The translations under genes were made by a program, and so were the position numbers. Below, one piece after another: positions 1,016 to 8,977 of a DNA stretch of 11,518 nt; the first letter of the stretch is position 1; each line of letters begins with the position of its first letter. The notes beneath the pieces were generated by a model that did not search any database, was not told the origin of the DNA, and saw only the letters and a list, made by a program, of their open reading frames with translations. The stretch is taken from positions 1 through 11,518 of the forward strand of contig NZER01000433.1 of assembly GCA_002690445.1 (NCBI GenBank), in the 5' to 3' direction. The DNA comes from Candidatus Pacearchaeota archaeon (lineage in GTDB: Archaea; Nanoarchaeota; Nanoarchaeia; Pacearchaeales; GW2011-AR1).

Positions 1016-1891
1016 CTACGCTCCTACTGTCTGATTGCTCAAGACCGCAGATAGTCGCTCAAGTCTAACCCTAACGTCTTCTTTCCAAGCCTCGTTATAT
1101 TTTACAACACGAACATTATCAGTCTTGTTGCCAAACATCTCTACCGACTTGTCAAAAACGTCATCAAAGATCGCCGCTACTTCATACTGGCAACAGCGTA
1201 GTTTTTGAAATTGAGAGCATTGTGGCACACTCACAACATCTCTTGGGTTGACCTTACAGATAACGATTTGGTTTCCACCACCGTCATCATCGTCACCACC
1301 CTTATTGTCCAGATCAATTCCACCATAGCTGGTGACGTAATCAATAGAACCAACATGCAGCCCATGACTACAGCCACGATCACGGTTGGAGTCCACTGAC
1401 GACCGATCTACGGACACGGTTTCCCCAACACTATTATCAAGGCTTCCGCTATAAATATCCTTGAAGTTTTCTTTCACGGCCTTGTAAGCCAAGAAGTGAC
1501 CATCATCCGTAATCGGAAGATGCTTATGTTGCATGAAGTCAAACAACTCTACAATAGCCTTGTCAGAGGGATTATCATTCAGGTTATTCAAAAAGTTGAG
1601 CATAGGCTCAAATTCAAAACCTTCCTTACGCATTTGCATAATGCGGTCAGAAAAAAGCTCTGGCATCGGAATCCCATTCCAATTAAGTGTACCATGTTTA
1701 ACATGCACATAGCCATCACAAAAGTGTTCAACAGAAGACGCAACATCATAAGCCGCCTCAAAGTGTTCTACGTTCCCACTCTTAAGATGCCGGATTAAGG
1801 CATTATAATTGTGGTGGTTCTTATCAAAGGTATATGCTTGACCATCTGCGATTGCATTTACCACACCTGAATTACTAATAATATACTTCAT
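1016..1891 (-). CDS. rIIB: RIIB-like protein
   Basis: The protein has 291 aa, close to the roughly 310 aa of T4 RIIB. The typical C-terminal half is present: FLAYKAV (133-139), then CSHGLHVGS (174-182), and ICKVNPRDVVSVP (211-223). RIIB acts with RIIA in T4-like phages in lysis timing and in growth on lambda lysogens (exclusion by RexAB); the biochemical role is unsettled. I chose the ATG at 1891: it follows the rIIA stop by one base, and GGAG lies 7 nt upstream inside the last rIIA codons. A TTG-type extension of 7 codons to 1912 is possible but lacks a comparable site. Residues 196-207 form an unusual Asp/Gly-rich insert (GG-DDDD-GGG) just before the conserved ICKVNP strand. Confidence 0.9.
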   Translation of the reverse strand: MKYIISNSGVVNAIADGQAYTFDKNHHNYNALIRHLKSGNVEHFEAAYDVASSVEHFCDGYVHVKHGTLNWNGIPMPELFSDRIMQMRKEGFEFEPMLNFLNNLNDNPSDKAIVELFDFMQHKHLPITDDGHFLAYKAVKENFKDIYSGSLDNSVGETVSVDRSSVDSNRDRGCSHGLHVGSIDYVTSYGGIDLDNKGGDDDDGGGNQIVICKVNPRDVVSVPQCSQFQKLRCCQYEVAAIFDDVFDKSVEMFGNKTDNVRVVKYNEAWKEDVRVRLERLSAVLSNQTVGA

Positions 1892-1910
1892 CTCAATTCT
1901 CCATTCTGTC
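1892..1910 (-). repeat. Repeated gene-junction sequence, copy 1 (rIIA/rIIB)
   Basis: The minus strand reads GACAGAATGGAGAATTGAG. It encodes the last residues of RIIA (DRMEN-stop) and carries the GGAG ribosome binding site of rIIB. A second copy with one mismatch lies at 8488-8506, at the junction after the mannose-6-phosphate isomerase gene. Confidence 0.8.
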
Positions 1911-4025
1911 AATATAGTTAGCTATAGTTTCATAATCATCTTCGGAAGGGTGTCCGAGTAAATTAATCATCGGATACTTCTTAATCATTATATCATACAT
2001 TTCGTCAGTATCAACCACTTGGCTTAAAATACTTTCCTTAAAATCTTTCCAGATACCAACACCAACCGCCATTCTTCTTAATGTCTTCAAGCCTTCACAA
2101 GTAACACCGTTAGGTAGCTCTGGCTCTTTATAAGTTTCATAGAAGTCGCTAAAAGCATTTTCGGTTGTGGTTTTATCTGAGATTCCTATCATTTTATGGG
2201 TATTCATATTACCACTTCCAACACTCCACATATCGAAAAGTGAGCTTTCCATATCAATGAAGTTCTGGCGATTCATACGAAGAGTCTCCAGTACAGCCTC
2301 TTTTAAATATGTAGCTCCATCAGTCCAGTTTTCTCGGCCTTCTAGTTTCATAGACTTTGCTGTGGAGGGAGTAACTATGAATATCTTATTGTCAAGCTCT
2401 CCCACATCATAACCAGCATCTTCTAGGGATTGCAGGAGGCCTTTAACTGAATCTATATGAAAGCTGTAATCGTTATAAATACCAGACATACAAACGGAGT
2501 CACGAATTTTGGTCAGATAAAAGGCATCCTCTTCTTTTACGCTAACTTTTGTTTCCCTGCTAACCCATTTGCTGCTTGATACAGAATTGTCCTCATGTTT
2601 GAGTATACGAATAGCGGGTGAAGTCGCACCACTAGAATAAGAACTAGAACTAGAAGCCTTTTTGGGTGGAGCAGGAAGGCCTGATGAGTTTATCACAAGC
2701 TCTTTGGGGCATCCAGACTTTTCTATGAAGGTGTTAAGCTCTTCTTCTGTGCGAATTAGGTAGGCGTAGCCTTGACCCTTTTCAATAAGAAAATGTCTTA
2801 CACGACCAACAGCACCTCTTTTAGAGTCTTGATAAATAATACTAACACCCTTTGTGTCTCCCAAGAAAACGTGTTGAGTTTCTTTCCTGCTAATAGATTC
2901 TCGCCATTGACTTTTTTGGAATTCTACTAAGGTTTCGATGCCTGTATCAACTGAGAACTTGCTATACCCCAACGCCTCGCTATCGAATAGTTCGATACCA
3001 TTCCAGTCGCCAATACTATTGAGGCTTGTTGACACAGAGGCTATTCTATCTAGCTTCTTAAACATGCTGATAAACTTGAGTCTAGCATCCCAGATTGTTT
3101 CACACTCAGCAACAGAATCTTTGACAATATCCGACAACTCAGAGAGTGCGTCTGTAACTATAGAAAGTATATTCTTTTTAGTTCTATCGTTATAGGATAG
3201 AGATTCCCTAGATGGTGTTATATCTAAATCACCAATGTCAACCTTGATTTCAAACCCATTACATCCGTCCAGCAGTTTGTAAGCATCCGTACCATACTCA
3301 AACTGATCGGTGTCTATTGGGTAAGATACTTGACCCATGATAACAGTATTTTTCCATCCTGATTTATATATTTTCCAATTGGAACCTTCTACCAGAACCT
3401 CATTGTTTTGAAAATTAAGCGGAACAGAAGTGGTAGGCCTAATATCAAAAGTCTCATAGATAGTCTCTGCCTCTTCTCTGAACTCGCCAGAATCTTCTGG
3501 GTCAACAGACATACTGATGCGCATACCGTTTGGTTCGTCTGTAGGTTTTTCATCTAGCAGAGAGAATACTGGCTCGCCGGTATCGCCCTTATAGGAACTA
3601 AATGTGTAGTGAGTACCATTGAAGAATGACTCAACCAAGAACTGGTCGGTGTATGCAAATGGAGACTTGCTACCAAGACCCAAGCAACCAACAGCATCGT
3701 TACTGTCTGTTTTATCGCTACGGAAATAAGTAGTATATAAATCAAAGCAGTCGTCGTGACTCAACCCAGTGCCGTAATCACGAACCGCAAATGTAGTGTC
3801 TAGTTTCGTAGGAATCTGGACATAGAAGGGCTTATTTGGACAGCCTGCTGCTACATGAGCATCGTAAGCATTGGTCGAGATTTCACGAACAACTGCCTTA
3901 ACTTTGTTTGAATAAAGGCTATCCGAAAGAATAGCGAAAGCCTTAGCTGTAGCATCTATCTTATAGTTAGATGTTTGAAAGCTGGAGGACTTTTCAATAG
4001 TATTTTGTGACGTATGCAATTTCAT
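1893..4025 (-). CDS. rIIA: RIIA-like protein with GHKL ATPase fold
   Basis: This 710-aa protein is near the length of T4 RIIA (about 725 aa). The N-terminal GHKL (gyrase/Hsp90/MutL) ATP-binding motifs are intact: the N box E48-x3-N52-x2-D55, the G1 box DYGTG at 83-87, and the G2 box GLGSKS at 116-121. The RIIA-typical TPSRESLSY follows at 270-278. A serine-rich linker (about 458-469) separates this core from a C-terminal region of unknown fold. In T4, RIIA is membrane-associated and works with RIIB in lysis control and exclusion by lambda Rex. The ATG at 4025 has AGGAG 8 nt upstream and a strong promoter about 45 nt further up (4070-4097). It heads the operon rIIA-rIIB-epimerase. The ATP-binding residues suggest real ATPase activity, which is inference. 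Confidence 0.93.
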   Translation of the reverse strand: MKLHTSQNTIEKSSSFQTSNYKIDATAKAFAILSDSLYSNKVKAVVREISTNAYDAHVAAGCPNKPFYVQIPTKLDTTFAVRDYGTGLSHDDCFDLYTTYFRSDKTDSNDAVGCLGLGSKSPFAYTDQFLVESFFNGTHYTFSSYKGDTGEPVFSLLDEKPTDEPNGMRISMSVDPEDSGEFREEAETIYETFDIRPTTSVPLNFQNNEVLVEGSNWKIYKSGWKNTVIMGQVSYPIDTDQFEYGTDAYKLLDGCNGFEIKVDIGDLDITPSRESLSYNDRTKKNILSIVTDALSELSDIVKDSVAECETIWDARLKFISMFKKLDRIASVSTSLNSIGDWNGIELFDSEALGYSKFSVDTGIETLVEFQKSQWRESISRKETQHVFLGDTKGVSIIYQDSKRGAVGRVRHFLIEKGQGYAYLIRTEEELNTFIEKSGCPKELVINSSGLPAPPKKASSSSSYSSGATSPAIRILKHEDNSVSSSKWVSRETKVSVKEEDAFYLTKIRDSVCMSGIYNDYSFHIDSVKGLLQSLEDAGYDVGELDNKIFIVTPSTAKSMKLEGRENWTDGATYLKEAVLETLRMNRQNFIDMESSLFDMWSVGSGNMNTHKMIGISDKTTTENAFSDFYETYKEPELPNGVTCEGLKTLRRMAVGVGIWKDFKESILSQVVDTDEMYDIMIKKYPMINLLGHPSEDDYETIANYIDRMEN

Positions 4026-6980: not shown

Positions 6981-7421
6981 TTAAATATCTTTTGCCCTAG
7001 AGATTAGACCGCTTGAGGATTCTGTTTTTTCTCCACCAACATTATATATCATACCAATTCCAAGTTCATCTTTCAAGATGTCTTCTGGAATCCCTCCCTC
7101 TTTTCTATCTCCACCATTAGCAAAAACCATACTGGTGAAAAAGTAATCGGTATAATGCTTGTAATACTCTACCCTTACGGACTCACAAACGGTTCCGTCT
7201 TTATCTACAGAGATAACAGCAGAGTCAACGCCCTTAATGTTGGATACAATCTTTAGGCGGTCTTCCTCGCTCATAAAGGGAACAGTGCCTTTTAGCCTAA
7301 CCTGCTTATCATTATTAACAATAACTATTAGCTTGTCGCCAAGAGAGGCTGCTGCCCTAATATAATCTATATGTCCACAATGTATTGGGTTAAAGAACCC
7401 AGAAATTACTACGACTCGCAC
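6981..7421 (-). CDS. HxGH nucleotidyltransferase (cytidylyltransferase-like)
   Basis: This 146-aa protein starts with the class motif SGFFNPIHCGHIDYI, giving H14-x-G16-H17. The conserved strand IVIVNND follows at about 32-38, then a GGDR segment. The C-terminal ESSSGLISRA (about 134-143) corresponds to the usual ISSTxIR phosphate-binding motif. The family transfers CMP or AMP from CTP/ATP to a phosphorylated acceptor, as in glycerol-3-phosphate cytidylyltransferase and heptose-1-phosphate adenylyltransferase. The start is GTG, with a full AAGGAGG at 7 nt (7429-7435). It overlaps the phosphomannomutase gene by 13 nt, so the two are probably made together. A sugar-1-phosphate substrate is inferred from this context; glycerol phosphate is the main alternative. 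Confidence 0.85.
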   Translation of the reverse strand: MRVVVISGFFNPIHCGHIDYIRAAASLGDKLIVIVNNDKQVRLKGTVPFMSEEDRLKIVSNIKGVDSAVISVDKDGTVCESVRVEYYKHYTDYFFTSMVFANGGDRKEGGIPEDILKDELGIGMIYNVGGEKTESSSGLISRAKDI

Positions 7422-8152
7422 AGGTTGTCCTCCTTGTTTAGTTCATCAAGTTTACTTATTACCGCCATTATATCTCTTGTCTGCTTCCAGTCTGCAACAT
7501 GATACCTCTCAGTAGCTCTACACGATATGCTATAATCATTACCTCCTCTGTCACATTTATCTCCAAAGAAAATAGTGTCGCCAATCATGTCGTTCAAAAC
7601 CTGAGACTTGTCTCTACCTTTGGGATATATATCAATGCTGATTTCTCCACCCACAACAGCTTCGATGGAGGGGAAGTTCATATTTAATTCGTTTGCTATT
7701 CTTCGTCGCTCTCCGTTTTCCTTATCCCACTGGTAATACTCAGCCCTGTCTTCTATCGAGCAGTTTCTACCAACGGTTGAGATGTTTAACATTCCAACCC
7801 TAATCTCTTTATTGCCGCTACTCTTCCCATACCACTCACTAGACCGTAGTAGGTCGTCAATTTTCATCTCCAGCTTTTTAGGTAGAGTCCAGTCACTACT
7901 CTTGCGTAACTGTTCATTTTTATAAAGTTCGTTGCCGCAGTTTTGATAAACACCATCGACTAGGTTATATATCTTAACGCCGACTTGCTCAATTGTTTTT
8001 TCTTTATCGGAACCTGTAACTAAGTAAATATTATTACCAAGTTTTAGTTGAGATTCAACCCAAGATATAAACTCATCTCGAAACTCCTTTTCCATTGGCT
8101 TTCTAGCAGGAGTTAAGGTTCCATCCACATCGAAAAGATAGCTTGTAATCAT
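7409..8152 (-). CDS. Phosphomannomutase, eukaryotic-type (HAD superfamily)
   Basis: Phosphomannomutase interconverts mannose-6-phosphate and mannose-1-phosphate through a phospho-Asp intermediate. At 247 aa it is the length of human PMM2 (246 aa). The nucleophile motif FDVDGT is at 7-12 (D8, D10). The TGSD motif is at 47-50, the substrate-binding GRNCS at 128-132 with R136, and GGEISIDIYPKG at 168-179 followed by D181-K182. The metal-binding FFGDKC and GGND follow (195-206). These are the hallmarks of the PMM (HAD-IIB cap) family, not of the ManB/AlgC family used by most bacteria. AGGA lies 6 nt before the ATG. It follows a tRNA gene and overlaps the nucleotidyltransferase by 13 nt. All catalytic positions I can place are present, so it should be active. 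Confidence 0.93.
   Translation of the reverse strand: MITSYLFDVDGTLTPARKPMEKEFRDEFISWVESQLKLGNNIYLVTGSDKEKTIEQVGVKIYNLVDGVYQNCGNELYKNEQLRKSSDWTLPKKLEMKIDDLLRSSEWYGKSSGNKEIRVGMLNISTVGRNCSIEDRAEYYQWDKENGERRRIANELNMNFPSIEAVVGGEISIDIYPKGRDKSQVLNDMIGDTIFFGDKCDRGGNDYSISCRATERYHVADWKQTRDIMAVISKLDELNKEDNLCES
7429..7435 (-). promoter_or_regulatory. Strong ribosome binding site for a GTG start
   Basis: AAGGAGG lies 7 nt before the GTG at 7421, inside the C-terminal codons of the phosphomannomutase gene. It decides the GTG start of the nucleotidyltransferase. Confidence 0.8.
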
Positions 8153-8172
8153 AATATATCCTATATGTTAAA

Positions 8173-8244
8173 TGACCTGTATGGGAGTCGAACCCATGTT
8201 GCCAGCGTGAGAGGCTGGAGTCCTAACCGCTAGACGAACAGGCC
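8173..8244 (-). tRNA. tRNA-Glu, anticodon CUC
   Basis: The 72 nt fold into a complete cloverleaf. The acceptor stem is GGCCTGT with ACAGGTC (one G-T pair), the D arm GTCT/GGAC, the anticodon stem CCAGC/GCTGG with loop CTCTCAC, the variable loop CAAC, and the T arm ATGGG-TTCGACT-CCCAT, with discriminator A. The anticodon is CUC, decoding GAG. The 3' CCA is not encoded (the next bases are TTT), so it relies on a host CCA-adding enzyme. The loop differs from a usual bacterial tRNA-Glu(UUC) by one base at position 34. It starts 5 nt after the stop of the 78-aa gene and is transcribed within the mannose operon. Confidence 0.95.
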
Positions 8245-8249
8245 AGACC

Positions 8250-8486
8250 CTAATTTATATTATTAAACCCAATTTTTGTAGGGGTGGACTGCTTGCCAAC
8301 GCTAATAAAATCGTTCTCAGTAAATAAATCTCGCGTCCTAATGTCACCATTCCACCATGCGCACTCATATTGAACAACATCATTAGCATGGATGGATACT
8401 GACATAATTTTTGCATTAATATTTTCTGTCAGCGATACTTCCGTTCCAACACTATATATGTCTAGTGTCTTTTTTCTAGCTACCAT
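8250..8486 (-). CDS. Small beta-rich protein, unknown
   Basis: This 78-aa protein has a pattern of short strands (TEVSLTENINAKIMSVSIH, VQYECAWWNG, RTRDLFTENDFI) that suggests an SH3-like barrel. The YECAWWNG segment resembles small hypothetical phage proteins. No catalytic motif or membrane segment is visible. I chose the ATG at 8486 because GGAG lies 8 nt upstream; the frame could extend only to a TTG at 8492. It overlaps the end of the isomerase gene only in its ribosome binding site, which is written in that gene's last codons. The tRNA-Glu gene begins 5 nt after its stop. Confidence 0.75.
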   Translation of the reverse strand: MVARKKTLDIYSVGTEVSLTENINAKIMSVSIHANDVVQYECAWWNGDIRTRDLFTENDFISVGKQSTPTKIGFNNIN

Positions 8487-8487
8487 A

Positions 8488-8506
8488 CTCAATTCTCCGT
8501 TCTGTC
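8488..8506 (-). repeat. Repeated gene-junction sequence, copy 2 (isomerase / 78-aa gene)
   Basis: The minus strand reads GACAGAACGGAGAATTGAG, one base different from the copy at 1892-1910. It encodes the isomerase C-terminus (DRTEN-stop) and carries the GGAG site of the next gene. Confidence 0.8.
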
Positions 8507-8977
8507 GTAGTCATCTTCGATTCTAACAATGTCGCCTTCTTGACACTTGCCGGTTTGAATTTCAACAAAAATTAAATCGTGAAGCCCATCAGATTTAACC
8601 CTATGGACATCATACTTATTAATTTTAACAATACTTCCGTGACCTATATCCCAAGATTTATTGCCAACCTGAACCGTTCCGCACCCAGATATTACGCTCC
8701 ACAGTTCATCCCTCTTGGTGTGAAGCTGTAAGCTGAGTCGCTGACCTGTCTTGACTGTTATTTTTTTTACTTTCACCTCTGGCTCATCCAGTAAGACCCG
8801 AAAAGATCCCCACGGACGGGTTTCATAGGGTTTATCTCCAGAGAAGGATGGAAGGTGAAGAAAAACCTCATCTTCCTTATCTACCTCTTCTCTGTTTGGA
8901 TTATCTTTACCACACGCCGGACATCTATCAGCGAGCGAGGTGGTAATGTATTGGCAGCAAGTATATCTGTATTGCAT
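8489..8977 (-). CDS. Mannose-6-phosphate isomerase cupin with N-terminal zinc ribbon
   Basis: This 162-aa protein matches the C-terminal isomerase domain of type II enzymes (ManC/AlgA): RPWGSF (54-59), the strand KVKKITVKTGQRLSLQLH (69-86), the metal-site stretch H86-TKRD-E91, then HR (125-126), EIQTG (139-143) and DIVRIEDDYDR to the end. It would interconvert fructose-6-phosphate and mannose-6-phosphate. The GDP-mannose pyrophosphorylase half of ManC is absent. In its place is a short N-terminal Cys cluster (C7, C8 and CPAC at 19-22) that looks like a zinc ribbon. AAGGA lies 7 nt before the ATG and a strong promoter about 30 nt before it. It heads the unit that includes the phosphomannomutase, the next enzyme in the pathway. 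The usual EHW is ELW here (L92). Confidence 0.9.
   Translation of the reverse strand: MQYRYTCCQYITTSLADRCPACGKDNPNREEVDKEDEVFLHLPSFSGDKPYETRPWGSFRVLLDEPEVKVKKITVKTGQRLSLQLHTKRDELWSVISGCGTVQVGNKSWDIGHGSIVKINKYDVHRVKSDGLHDLIFVEIQTGKCQEGDIVRIEDDYDRTEN

Follow-up and report, generated by a model that had tools for sequence, protein, structure and literature searches.

In the ManC/AlgA proteins (TIGR01479), a PF00483 nucleotidyltransferase domain and a mannose-6-phosphate isomerase (MPI) domain are joined in a single chain. Nucleotidyltransferases of the HxGH superfamily (PF01467) are, to our knowledge, known with ATP or CTP only; HldC and GCT are ATP and CTP users, respectively, and NMNAT is another HxGH relative. 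An activity on mannose-1-phosphate has been described for HldE, which makes ADP-β-mannose from β-mannose-1-phosphate and uses the β but not the α anomer (PMC10948575). Among phages, the cyanophage S-SCSM1 carries an MPI together with genes annotated as GDP-mannose 4,6-dehydratase, fucose synthase and 3,5-epimerase, according to the available portion of the report (PMC9602691). A literature search of titles and abstract starts, mostly outside subscription journals, returned no HxGH mannose-1-phosphate enzyme of the kind considered here except HldE acting on β-mannose-1-phosphate (PMC10948575), no HxGH–MPI fusion and no phage phosphomannomutase accompanied by such an HxGH enzyme.

The window, which is the whole 11.5-kb stretch of DNA analysed here, belongs to a marine bacteriophage. 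It is reasonably probable, in our view, that this phage would bring its own route from host fructose-6-phosphate to activated mannose, in which an HxGH protein would act as a non-orthologous stand-in for ManC, most likely with GTP.

Gene set of the window

All three genes listed by the first-pass annotation, a type II MPI cupin, a phosphomannomutase (PMM) and an HxGH nucleotidyltransferase, were confirmed on the minus strand, each with profile scores above the cut-offs. The cupin (8489–8977, 162 aa) matches PF01050 (E 1.1e-21, 77.6 bits for a cut-off of 23.6) and aligns to the C-terminal part of TIGR01479 only (profile positions 360–466 of 467, E 4.5e-21). It carries LSLQLH at residues 81–86, in line with the SLQxH motif, HR at residue 125, and an N-terminal CC...CPAC stretch that is putatively metal-binding; it is predicted to be a type II MPI. 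The PMM (7409–8152, 247 aa) matches PF03332 (E 2.3e-27, 96.7 bits, cut-off 22.4) and its best solved relatives are phosphomannomutases (PDB 2i54, E 5e-29). It retains D8, D10, R17, R118, R129 and R136, which we take to be the DxDGT nucleophile motif and the substrate-binding arginines, and is predicted to be a eukaryotic-type (HAD) phosphomannomutase. The HxGH gene (6981–7421, 146 aa, GTG start), a predicted mannose-1-phosphate nucleotidyltransferase, overlaps the PMM gene by 13 bases (7409–7421). Its likely ribosome-binding site, AAGGAGG (7429–7435, minus strand), lies inside the PMM coding sequence, seven bases upstream of the GTG.

Two features separate the cupin from the PMM, also on the minus strand: an 80-aa ORF (8250–8492), with a 4-base overlap with the cupin, and a tRNA-Glu with anticodon CTC (8172–8245, ARAGORN). 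Neither Pfam nor PHROG gave a match for the ORF at E 0.01, so that these profiles assign it no function; homologues occupy the same place between cupin and PMM in two other loci, L002 (51% identity) and L061 (49%). With the tRNA and the ORF in between, one transcription unit for the three genes is likely, as judged by strand and spacing. As to the reported lack of ManC, a Pfam scan of 10 of the window's ORFs gave no PF00483 match; the phage as a whole, of which the window is an 11.5-kb fragment, may still encode ManC.

No near-identical counterpart of the window was found among 50,697 phage records. Assignment of a host from the window's rIIA gene was rejected, because the best 12 of 2862 records are 31–43% identical and come from many hosts.

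The HxGH protein and its viral relatives

The window HxGH protein matches PF01467 (E 7.7e-14, 52.5 bits, cut-off 21), with HCGH at residues 14–17; PF00483 gave no hit to it at E 0.01. Its AF2 model (pLDDT 91.8) has HldC, GCT and Thermoplasma 3glv as nearest solved folds. There are 2438 matches to this protein, its own cluster spans 50 contigs, and at least 25 relatives share 86–97% identity with it across 99% or more of its length (25 of the 119 other matches listed), which argues against an accident of assembly. The matches are mostly unnamed, some being annotated "cytidyltransferase-like" or "heptose adenylyltransferase".

The best NCBIfam match is rfaE domain II, with GCT lower down, and some phage records name such proteins heptose or glycerol-3-phosphate enzymes. 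Both facts would fit a nucleotidyltransferase of known type, acting on heptose-1-phosphate or glycerol-3-phosphate. However, the protein scores far under the curated cut-offs for the first (TIGR02199, 58.6 bits against 181.5) and the second (TIGR01518, 34.9 against 165.4), and the tree places it in a separate clade of its own (support 99/96), called NTA here and marked by FANGGDR...SSS. An HldE-type domain above its cut-off was also found in 4 of 22 genomes with the NTA clade, which speaks against the same reading. A known-type enzyme is therefore very unlikely, and plain HldE or GCT identity was rejected on the cut-offs and the tree. HxGH proteins were counted in two classes, NTA and the cyanophage-type NTB; the latter, like its small cupin CUB, is a different family from the window's, and both were left out of the window-class counts.

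When gene order was checked in relatives, the MPI–PMM–HxGH order was found to be kept in six further viral loci (L071–L073 and L148–L150), which form three groups at 80% PMM identity. In another viral locus (L076), an NTA-class HxGH domain is fused to MPI and followed by an overlapping PMM-like HAD gene. The conserved order and the fusion both support the idea that the three steps belong together. Wider viral counts tell against the proposed role: when the HxGH protein was used to retrieve 80 viral loci, PMM was found in only 8 and an MPI scoring at least 40 in 9 within the available stretch, the L076 fusion being uncounted among these nine as its MPI falls just under 40. Retrieval by PMM gave 23 dereplicated groups, 13 of them with an HxGH gene no more than 5 kb away, which is NTB in 12 and the window's class, NTA, in only 1; the PMM group L052 includes NTA. 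PF00483 occurs in none of 22 PMM-bearing viral contigs and PF01467 in 18 of them, while one record with MPI and PMM (G025) has no PF01467 in 77.6 kb. The three genes are not adjacent in some relatives.

Gmd-type genes are also found in viruses. A match at E <1e-85 was obtained in 6 of the 23 viral records searched, one of which, S-SCSM1, lies above the cut-off; the phages S-SSM7 and P-TIM68, which have PMM and NTA, gave no real Gmd match. A related 85.6-kb contig (G123) combines PMM, NTA and a Gmd-like gene; it also has one ORF with a weak MobA-like NTP_transf_3 match. On a further contig (G129), MPI, NTA and an inorganic pyrophosphatase are consecutive, with a Gmd-like gene elsewhere on the contig. 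The pyrophosphatase directly after MPI and NTA favours synthesis over the opposite direction, in which isomerase and mutase would run towards fructose-6-phosphate. PMC9602691 proposes such a role for the isomerase of S-SCSM1, with the pentose phosphate pathway and, through it, nucleotide synthesis being fed. A dedicated mutase and nucleotidyltransferase would moreover be pointless in the catabolic direction, which we regard as highly improbable.

HxGH–MPI fusions in cellular genomes

The NTA clade is fused to an MPI domain in SAR11, SAR86, other marine bacteria and Patescibacteria. A fused ORF, with the nucleotidyltransferase followed by the cupin, was present in 40 of the 80 cellular contig loci fetched. 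Below the top matches, the model of one fusion (P0126; pLDDT 91.7, pTM 0.58) gave a cupin-sized match to the Thermococcus phosphomannose isomerase 7zvm (rmsd 1.4 Å, 106 columns) and matches to the HxGH proteins HldC, GCT and 3glv. CapF gave the top matches in this fold search but was rejected as a relative, the rmsd of 17 Å leaving no meaningful whole-chain match.

ManC and Gmd were searched in 34 of the 40 genomes with the fusion, most cell genomes being incomplete metagenome-assembled (MAGs) or single-cell genomes. A ManC nucleotidyltransferase domain was found in 2 and none was found in 32, whereas 21 have a full-length Gmd-like protein (14 above the curated cut-off); none of these 21 yielded the ManC domain. 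Seven genomes have gmd no more than 2.4 kb from the fusion, four of them with both on one strand, and one MAG has the order gmd–fcl–[HxGH–MPI], where the fusion occupies the position of ManC in a predicted GDP-fucose operon. Eleven of the 34 are SAR11, eight of which have a full-length Gmd-like protein. Across 53 genomes of the SAR11 family, the MPI part is strong in 49, in 48 of these within frames of 258–273 aa, the size of the fusion, and the ManC domain was found in none of the 53. The four SAR11 genomes with no strong MPI match lack it too, so the lack of ManC in SAR11 is not tied to the fusion; the family, nearly all of which carries the MPI part, is thus unsuited as a control. The available part of a paper on SAR11 glycosyltransferases gives no source of GDP-mannose (PMC8231724).

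Another PF00483 enzyme may supply GDP-mannose in fusion-bearing cells, and weak matches to mannose-1-phosphate guanylyltransferase and HddC models do occur among the 11 proteins scanned. Their best matches are nevertheless of other types: RmlA (4), MurU (1) and archaeal GlmU-like (4) for nine Patescibacteria matches, all below curated cut-offs, and MurU-like for two short SAR11 ones.

These data also bear on a host ManC finishing a phage set that would end at mannose-1-phosphate, with the HxGH protein doing an unrelated job. The NTA clade does occur solitary, beside unrelated, non-sugar genes, in Bacteroidota and Falkowbacteria, and most viral HxGH loci lack PMM or MPI in the available stretch, as this explanation would predict. 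The fusions, in genomes most of which yielded no ManC domain, argue against it, and we consider it quite unlikely. With the order kept in the six viral loci, they make it probable that mannose-1-phosphate is activated by the HxGH enzyme and not by a ManC of the host.

The first-pass annotation had mainly envisaged CDP- or ADP-mannose, made with CTP or ATP as the nucleotide. The closest solved folds, HldC and GCT, and the ADP-β-mannose made by HldE (PMC10948575) are in keeping with this idea. The neighbours of the fusion are less so, since Gmd- and Fcl-type genes, which NCBIfam names as enzymes of GDP-sugars, adjoin it where no ManC domain was found. An unusual nucleotide sugar is thus the less supported product and appears unlikely; more likely, the enzyme is unusual and its product is ordinary GDP-mannose.

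A predicted route and its known counterparts

In the proposed route, the cupin would give mannose-6-phosphate and the HAD phosphomannomutase mannose-1-phosphate. The HxGH enzyme would then join the latter to a nucleotide, most likely GTP, with release of pyrophosphate. The resulting GDP-mannose would pass to a Gmd-type dehydratase and to glycosyltransferases, supplied by the host or by genes in other parts of such phages, and would probably serve surface glycans or glycosylation during infection. We infer each catalytic step, sugar substrate, nucleotide and end use from what the sequences show, namely families, motifs, adjacency, the fusion in other genomes and the occurrence of Gmd where ManC was not found. 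Synthesis of an NDP-mannose by the HxGH enzyme is probable from the fusion, neighbours and distribution; the broader reading, in which marine phages carry a split form with a eukaryotic-type phosphomannomutase and the HxGH enzyme uses GTP, is put forward tentatively. We know of no other GTP-using HxGH enzyme, and such use would be new for a superfamily known with ATP or CTP. Eukaryotic-type phosphomannomutases yield the α anomer, which the window enzyme should also give. This weakens the proposed activation, since HldE takes the β anomer only (PMC10948575).

If correct, the route would fill the missing GDP-mannose step in SAR11 and other Gmd-encoding bacteria with no detected ManC nucleotidyltransferase domain, extend a classic enzyme superfamily by one substrate and perhaps by a nucleotide, and mean that marine phages carry a three-gene sugar-activation route. 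The 2438 mostly unnamed matches gain a testable function prediction, and the same substitute enzyme, of predicted activity, would be shared by a marine bacteriophage and very abundant ocean bacteria.

Compared with known systems, the window PMM shares with PMM1/PMM2 (2amy, 2i54) the PF03332 match above cut-off, the Asp residues of the active site and the Arg residues for the substrate, but it is viral and known from its sequence. TagD (CTP:glycerol-3-phosphate cytidylyltransferase, 1coz) differs from the window HxGH protein, as the low score given above indicates. The C-terminal domain of HldE and HldC share the HxGH fold, HldC 5xf2 being the top Foldseek match; the window protein nevertheless stands in its own clade far under the HldE cut-off, and two HldE-type proteins show KGGDY...SSSN or KGGDY...STTK where the NTA clade mostly shows FANGGDR...SSS. 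A phage-borne MPI is common to S-SCSM1 and the window; the available part of PMC9602691 mentions an NMNAT gene but neither a phosphomannomutase nor an HxGH protein as partner of the MPI. As for ManC/AlgA, its nucleotidyltransferase is PF00483, in contrast to the PF01467 of the fusion and the window, and it is one two-domain protein, whereas the window has separate genes. The MPI domain is common to all of them, and the cellular fusion has the same two-domain order as ManC/AlgA, with gmd or gmd–fcl as neighbours in some genomes.

Layout and integrity of the phage module

The window, with a GC content of 39.5%, is a phage fragment, probably T4-like, in which an SSB gene accompanies rIIA (1893-4025, minus strand) and rIIB (within 1016-1912, minus strand). 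The first-pass annotation had placed three sugar-activation genes at 6981-8977; all three were confirmed on the minus strand, with families assigned by Pfam. The gene order is cupin (the mannose-6-phosphate isomerase, MPI), an 80-aa ORF, tRNA-Glu, phosphomannomutase (PMM) and HxGH nucleotidyltransferase. The HxGH gene overlaps the PMM gene by 13 bases and AAGGAGG precedes its GTG start, an arrangement which makes translational coupling likely. The 80-aa ORF (8250-8492, minus strand) matched no known family; its position is kept in the viral loci L002 (51% identity) and L061 (49%).

Each of the three enzymes looks intact at the sequence level, the cupin (PF01050, 77.6 bits), PMM (PF03332, 96.7 bits) and HxGH protein (PF01467, 52.5 bits) all scoring above the gathering cut-offs. 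The PMM, which matches phosphomannomutases of solved structure (2i54, E 5e-29; PMM2 2amy, E 4e-28), keeps both nucleophile-site aspartates and has R17, R118, R129 and R136 aligned with PMM2 arginines, at what we take to be substrate-binding positions. Residues 7-22 of the cupin (8912-8959) form an N-terminal CC...CPAC stretch, a putative zinc ribbon with a similar counterpart in the relative L068 and, to our knowledge, unusual among ManC-type cupins. The cupin also contains SLQxH, a motif that PMC9602691 gives for type II isomerases. The predicted HxGH model (mean pLDDT 91.8) has HldC, Thermoplasma 3glv and glycerol-3-phosphate cytidylyltransferase (GCT) as its nearest solved folds. Outside this module, the only sugar gene found in the window encodes a GalE/LegB-like SDR resembling nucleotide-sugar epimerases (70-1014; phrog_540, E 7e-98); it scores below the cut-off of every NCBIfam model listed, and is a possible nucleotide-sugar consumer.

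The HxGH classes and their partners

Neither familiar assignment suits the window HxGH protein, whose scores, 58.6 bits with the HldE domain model and 34.9 bits with that for GCT, stay below the respective cut-offs of 181.5 and 165.4. A tree built on 87 dereplicated rows, whose bootstrap is not fully settled and where several HldE-like rows are long branches, unites its clade, here called NTA, in one group (71 rows, support 99/96); HldE-like proteins and a second HxGH class, NTB, with 8 rows each, fall outside it. NTA proteins share an invariant GGD, which mostly sits inside FANGGDR, and an SSS stretch.

A scan of 2.9 million viral contigs yielded 63 loci with the PMM query, 128 with HxGH (80 kept) and 6 with the cupin, and MPI, PMM, NTA and NTB were classed by separate profiles. 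The gene order, which the first-pass annotation had proposed to look for in relatives, does recur: MPI-PMM-NTA lie on one strand in L071-L073 and L148-L150, which represent three groups at 80% PMM identity, the window aside. PMM comes first in L075, followed by overlapping MPI and NTA, and L070 begins within PMM, with NTA downstream. MPI and NTA overlap in L099 and L105, and occur in L068 and L069 with no PMM in the stretch examined. MPI and PMM lack a nearby NTA in L002, L003 and L061; the contigs of L001 and L002 carry NTA at another site, and no PF01467 match was found on those of L061 (77.6 kb) or L003 (17.5 kb).

Counting that of the window, 78 viral PMM ORFs fall into 33 groups at 80% identity, a set pooling different fetch routes. 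At least one member has a same-strand HxGH ORF within 5 kb in 21 of them, the nearest being NTB in 12, NTA in 8 and HldE-like in 1. Among groups fetched by PMM alone, 13 of 23 have such a neighbour (12 NTB, 1 NTA). PMM thus pairs with two HxGH classes, and the evidence for its pairing with NTA comes largely from loci retrieved with NTA or MPI as query. NTA-fetched viral loci contain PMM in 8/80 cases and MPI scoring at least 40 in 9/80; the class has roles beyond the MPI-PMM module.

Cyanophage-type loci (L004-L056, e.g. L016:3992-5476) carry PMM and NTB, sometimes with a small cupin_2 protein, often with an SDR next and in some with a UDP-glucose/GDP-mannose dehydrogenase-like gene; they make up a second, parallel PMM-HxGH module. 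Separately, NTB-like and NTA genes overlap in tandem amid phage replication genes (exonuclease, gp32-like, helicase) at L110:7553-8414, with similar tandems in L111-L113, L124, L128, L131, L137, L140, L142 and L144.

Fusion to the isomerase and the probable GDP-mannose context

In the viral contig L076, NTA and MPI form a single 237-aa protein (PF01467 + PF01050), directly followed by an overlapping PMM-like HAD gene. Many two-domain proteins with both Pfam families were among its best 120 matches, and the fusion is encoded in 40 of the 80 cellular loci kept, out of at least 550 confirmed (genome_contigs). Its hosts are SAR11, SAR86, Woeseia and other Gammaproteobacteria, a Neomarinimicrobiota MAG, a Flavobacteriaceae MAG and Patescibacteria. 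The fused state requires at least three changes on the tree, where L076 is labelled single; the fusion was therefore gained or lost more than once. A PMM-like HAD adjoins it in two cellular loci, L158 and L169, but lacks the phage-type residues R129 and R136; in L158 its Pfam match is HAD hydrolase only.

Four family searches were run on 34 of the 40 fusion genomes, many genomes surveyed for ManC being incomplete. TIGR01479 (ManC) matched all 34, with a strong nucleotidyltransferase part in only two (G059, G060); elsewhere it matched through its cupin part, or weakly (E >1e-6) over the nucleotidyltransferase part. TIGR01472 (Gmd) matched full-length at E <1e-85 in 21, above cut-off in 14, and G059 and G060 are not among these 21. 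Classical PGM/PMM (PF02878) was found in 26/34 and PF03332 in 6/34. The G060 Neomarinimicrobiota bin also holds a cupin-NTB-PMM trio (L233:395-2103), which could be a viral contig within the bin.

The MPI part was detected at E <1e-30 in 49 of 53 genomes of the SAR11 family, and the ManC nucleotidyltransferase part in none of the 53 (best E 1.7e-4), including the four lacking the MPI part. The MPI frames measure 258-273 aa in 48 cases, with one of 127 aa at a contig start; from their length the former are probably fusions, as read directly in the SAR11 loci examined. Twenty genomes with stand-alone NTA gave no ManC domain, with weak matches only (E 7e-8 or worse over the nucleotidyltransferase part), which is compatible with substitution for ManC and by itself no evidence for it. 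Stand-alone NTA genes of Bacteroidota (L214-L216, L219, L221-L224, L230, L231) and Patescibacteria (L165, L194 and kin) occupy conserved sites by SprT-like/2-oxoacid dehydrogenase or YceG genes, with no obvious sugar neighbours.

Fusion neighbours point to GDP-mannose. In seven genomes the fusion has a Gmd-like gene no more than 2.4 kb away, on the same strand in G029, G034, G038 and G044 and on the opposite one in G028, G030 and G035. In G029, one strand carries in succession gmd (575 bits against a cut-off of 415), a GDP-L-fucose-synthase-like gene (494.5 against 500) and the fusion. At the SAR86 locus L211, the fusion is preceded by an SDR and followed by a UDP-glucose/GDP-mannose dehydrogenase-like gene. 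Further fusion loci show no such neighbours; in SAR11 the fusion gene is flanked by DNA polymerase I and MFS transporter genes.

Of 23 viral records searched, six have Gmd at E <1e-85: S-SCSM1, above the cut-off, and L070 (G123), L077, L099, L105 and L101, below it. S-SSM7 gave no match, and P-TIM68, L071 and L073 only weak ones. The G123 protein scores 353.6 bits with Gmd and 112 with the next model. A custom profile of 20 NTP_transferases retrieved nothing in the 101 kb of G129, where MPI, NTA and inorganic pyrophosphatase are consecutive with overlaps, and one weak ORF in G123, MobA-like NTP_transf_3 by Pfam.

Proposed pathway and comparison with ManC

The cupin would convert fructose-6-phosphate to mannose-6-phosphate, PMM would yield mannose-1-phosphate, and the HxGH enzyme would turn this into NDP-mannose, most likely with GTP, since the adjacent consumers are GDP-mannose enzymes by family. 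The product may serve a surface glycan, or glycosylation of phage or host parts. A eukaryotic-type PMM should yield alpha-mannose-1-phosphate. HldE of E. coli and Vibrio activates the beta anomer and not the alpha, according to PMC10948575. Anomer choice, by this analogy, is the main biochemical objection to the proposed HxGH step: either the NTA clade would have changed its anomer preference, or the phage mutase may not be a strict alpha mutase.

MPI of marine phages is already known, PMC9602691 reporting the first isolate and describing MPI as frequent in viral metagenomes. Searches of an open-access library turned up no account of the HxGH partner, the NTA-MPI fusion or a viral eukaryotic-type PMM. 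The window HxGH module is likened to ManC by its predicted function, whereas its family membership differs from that of ManC.
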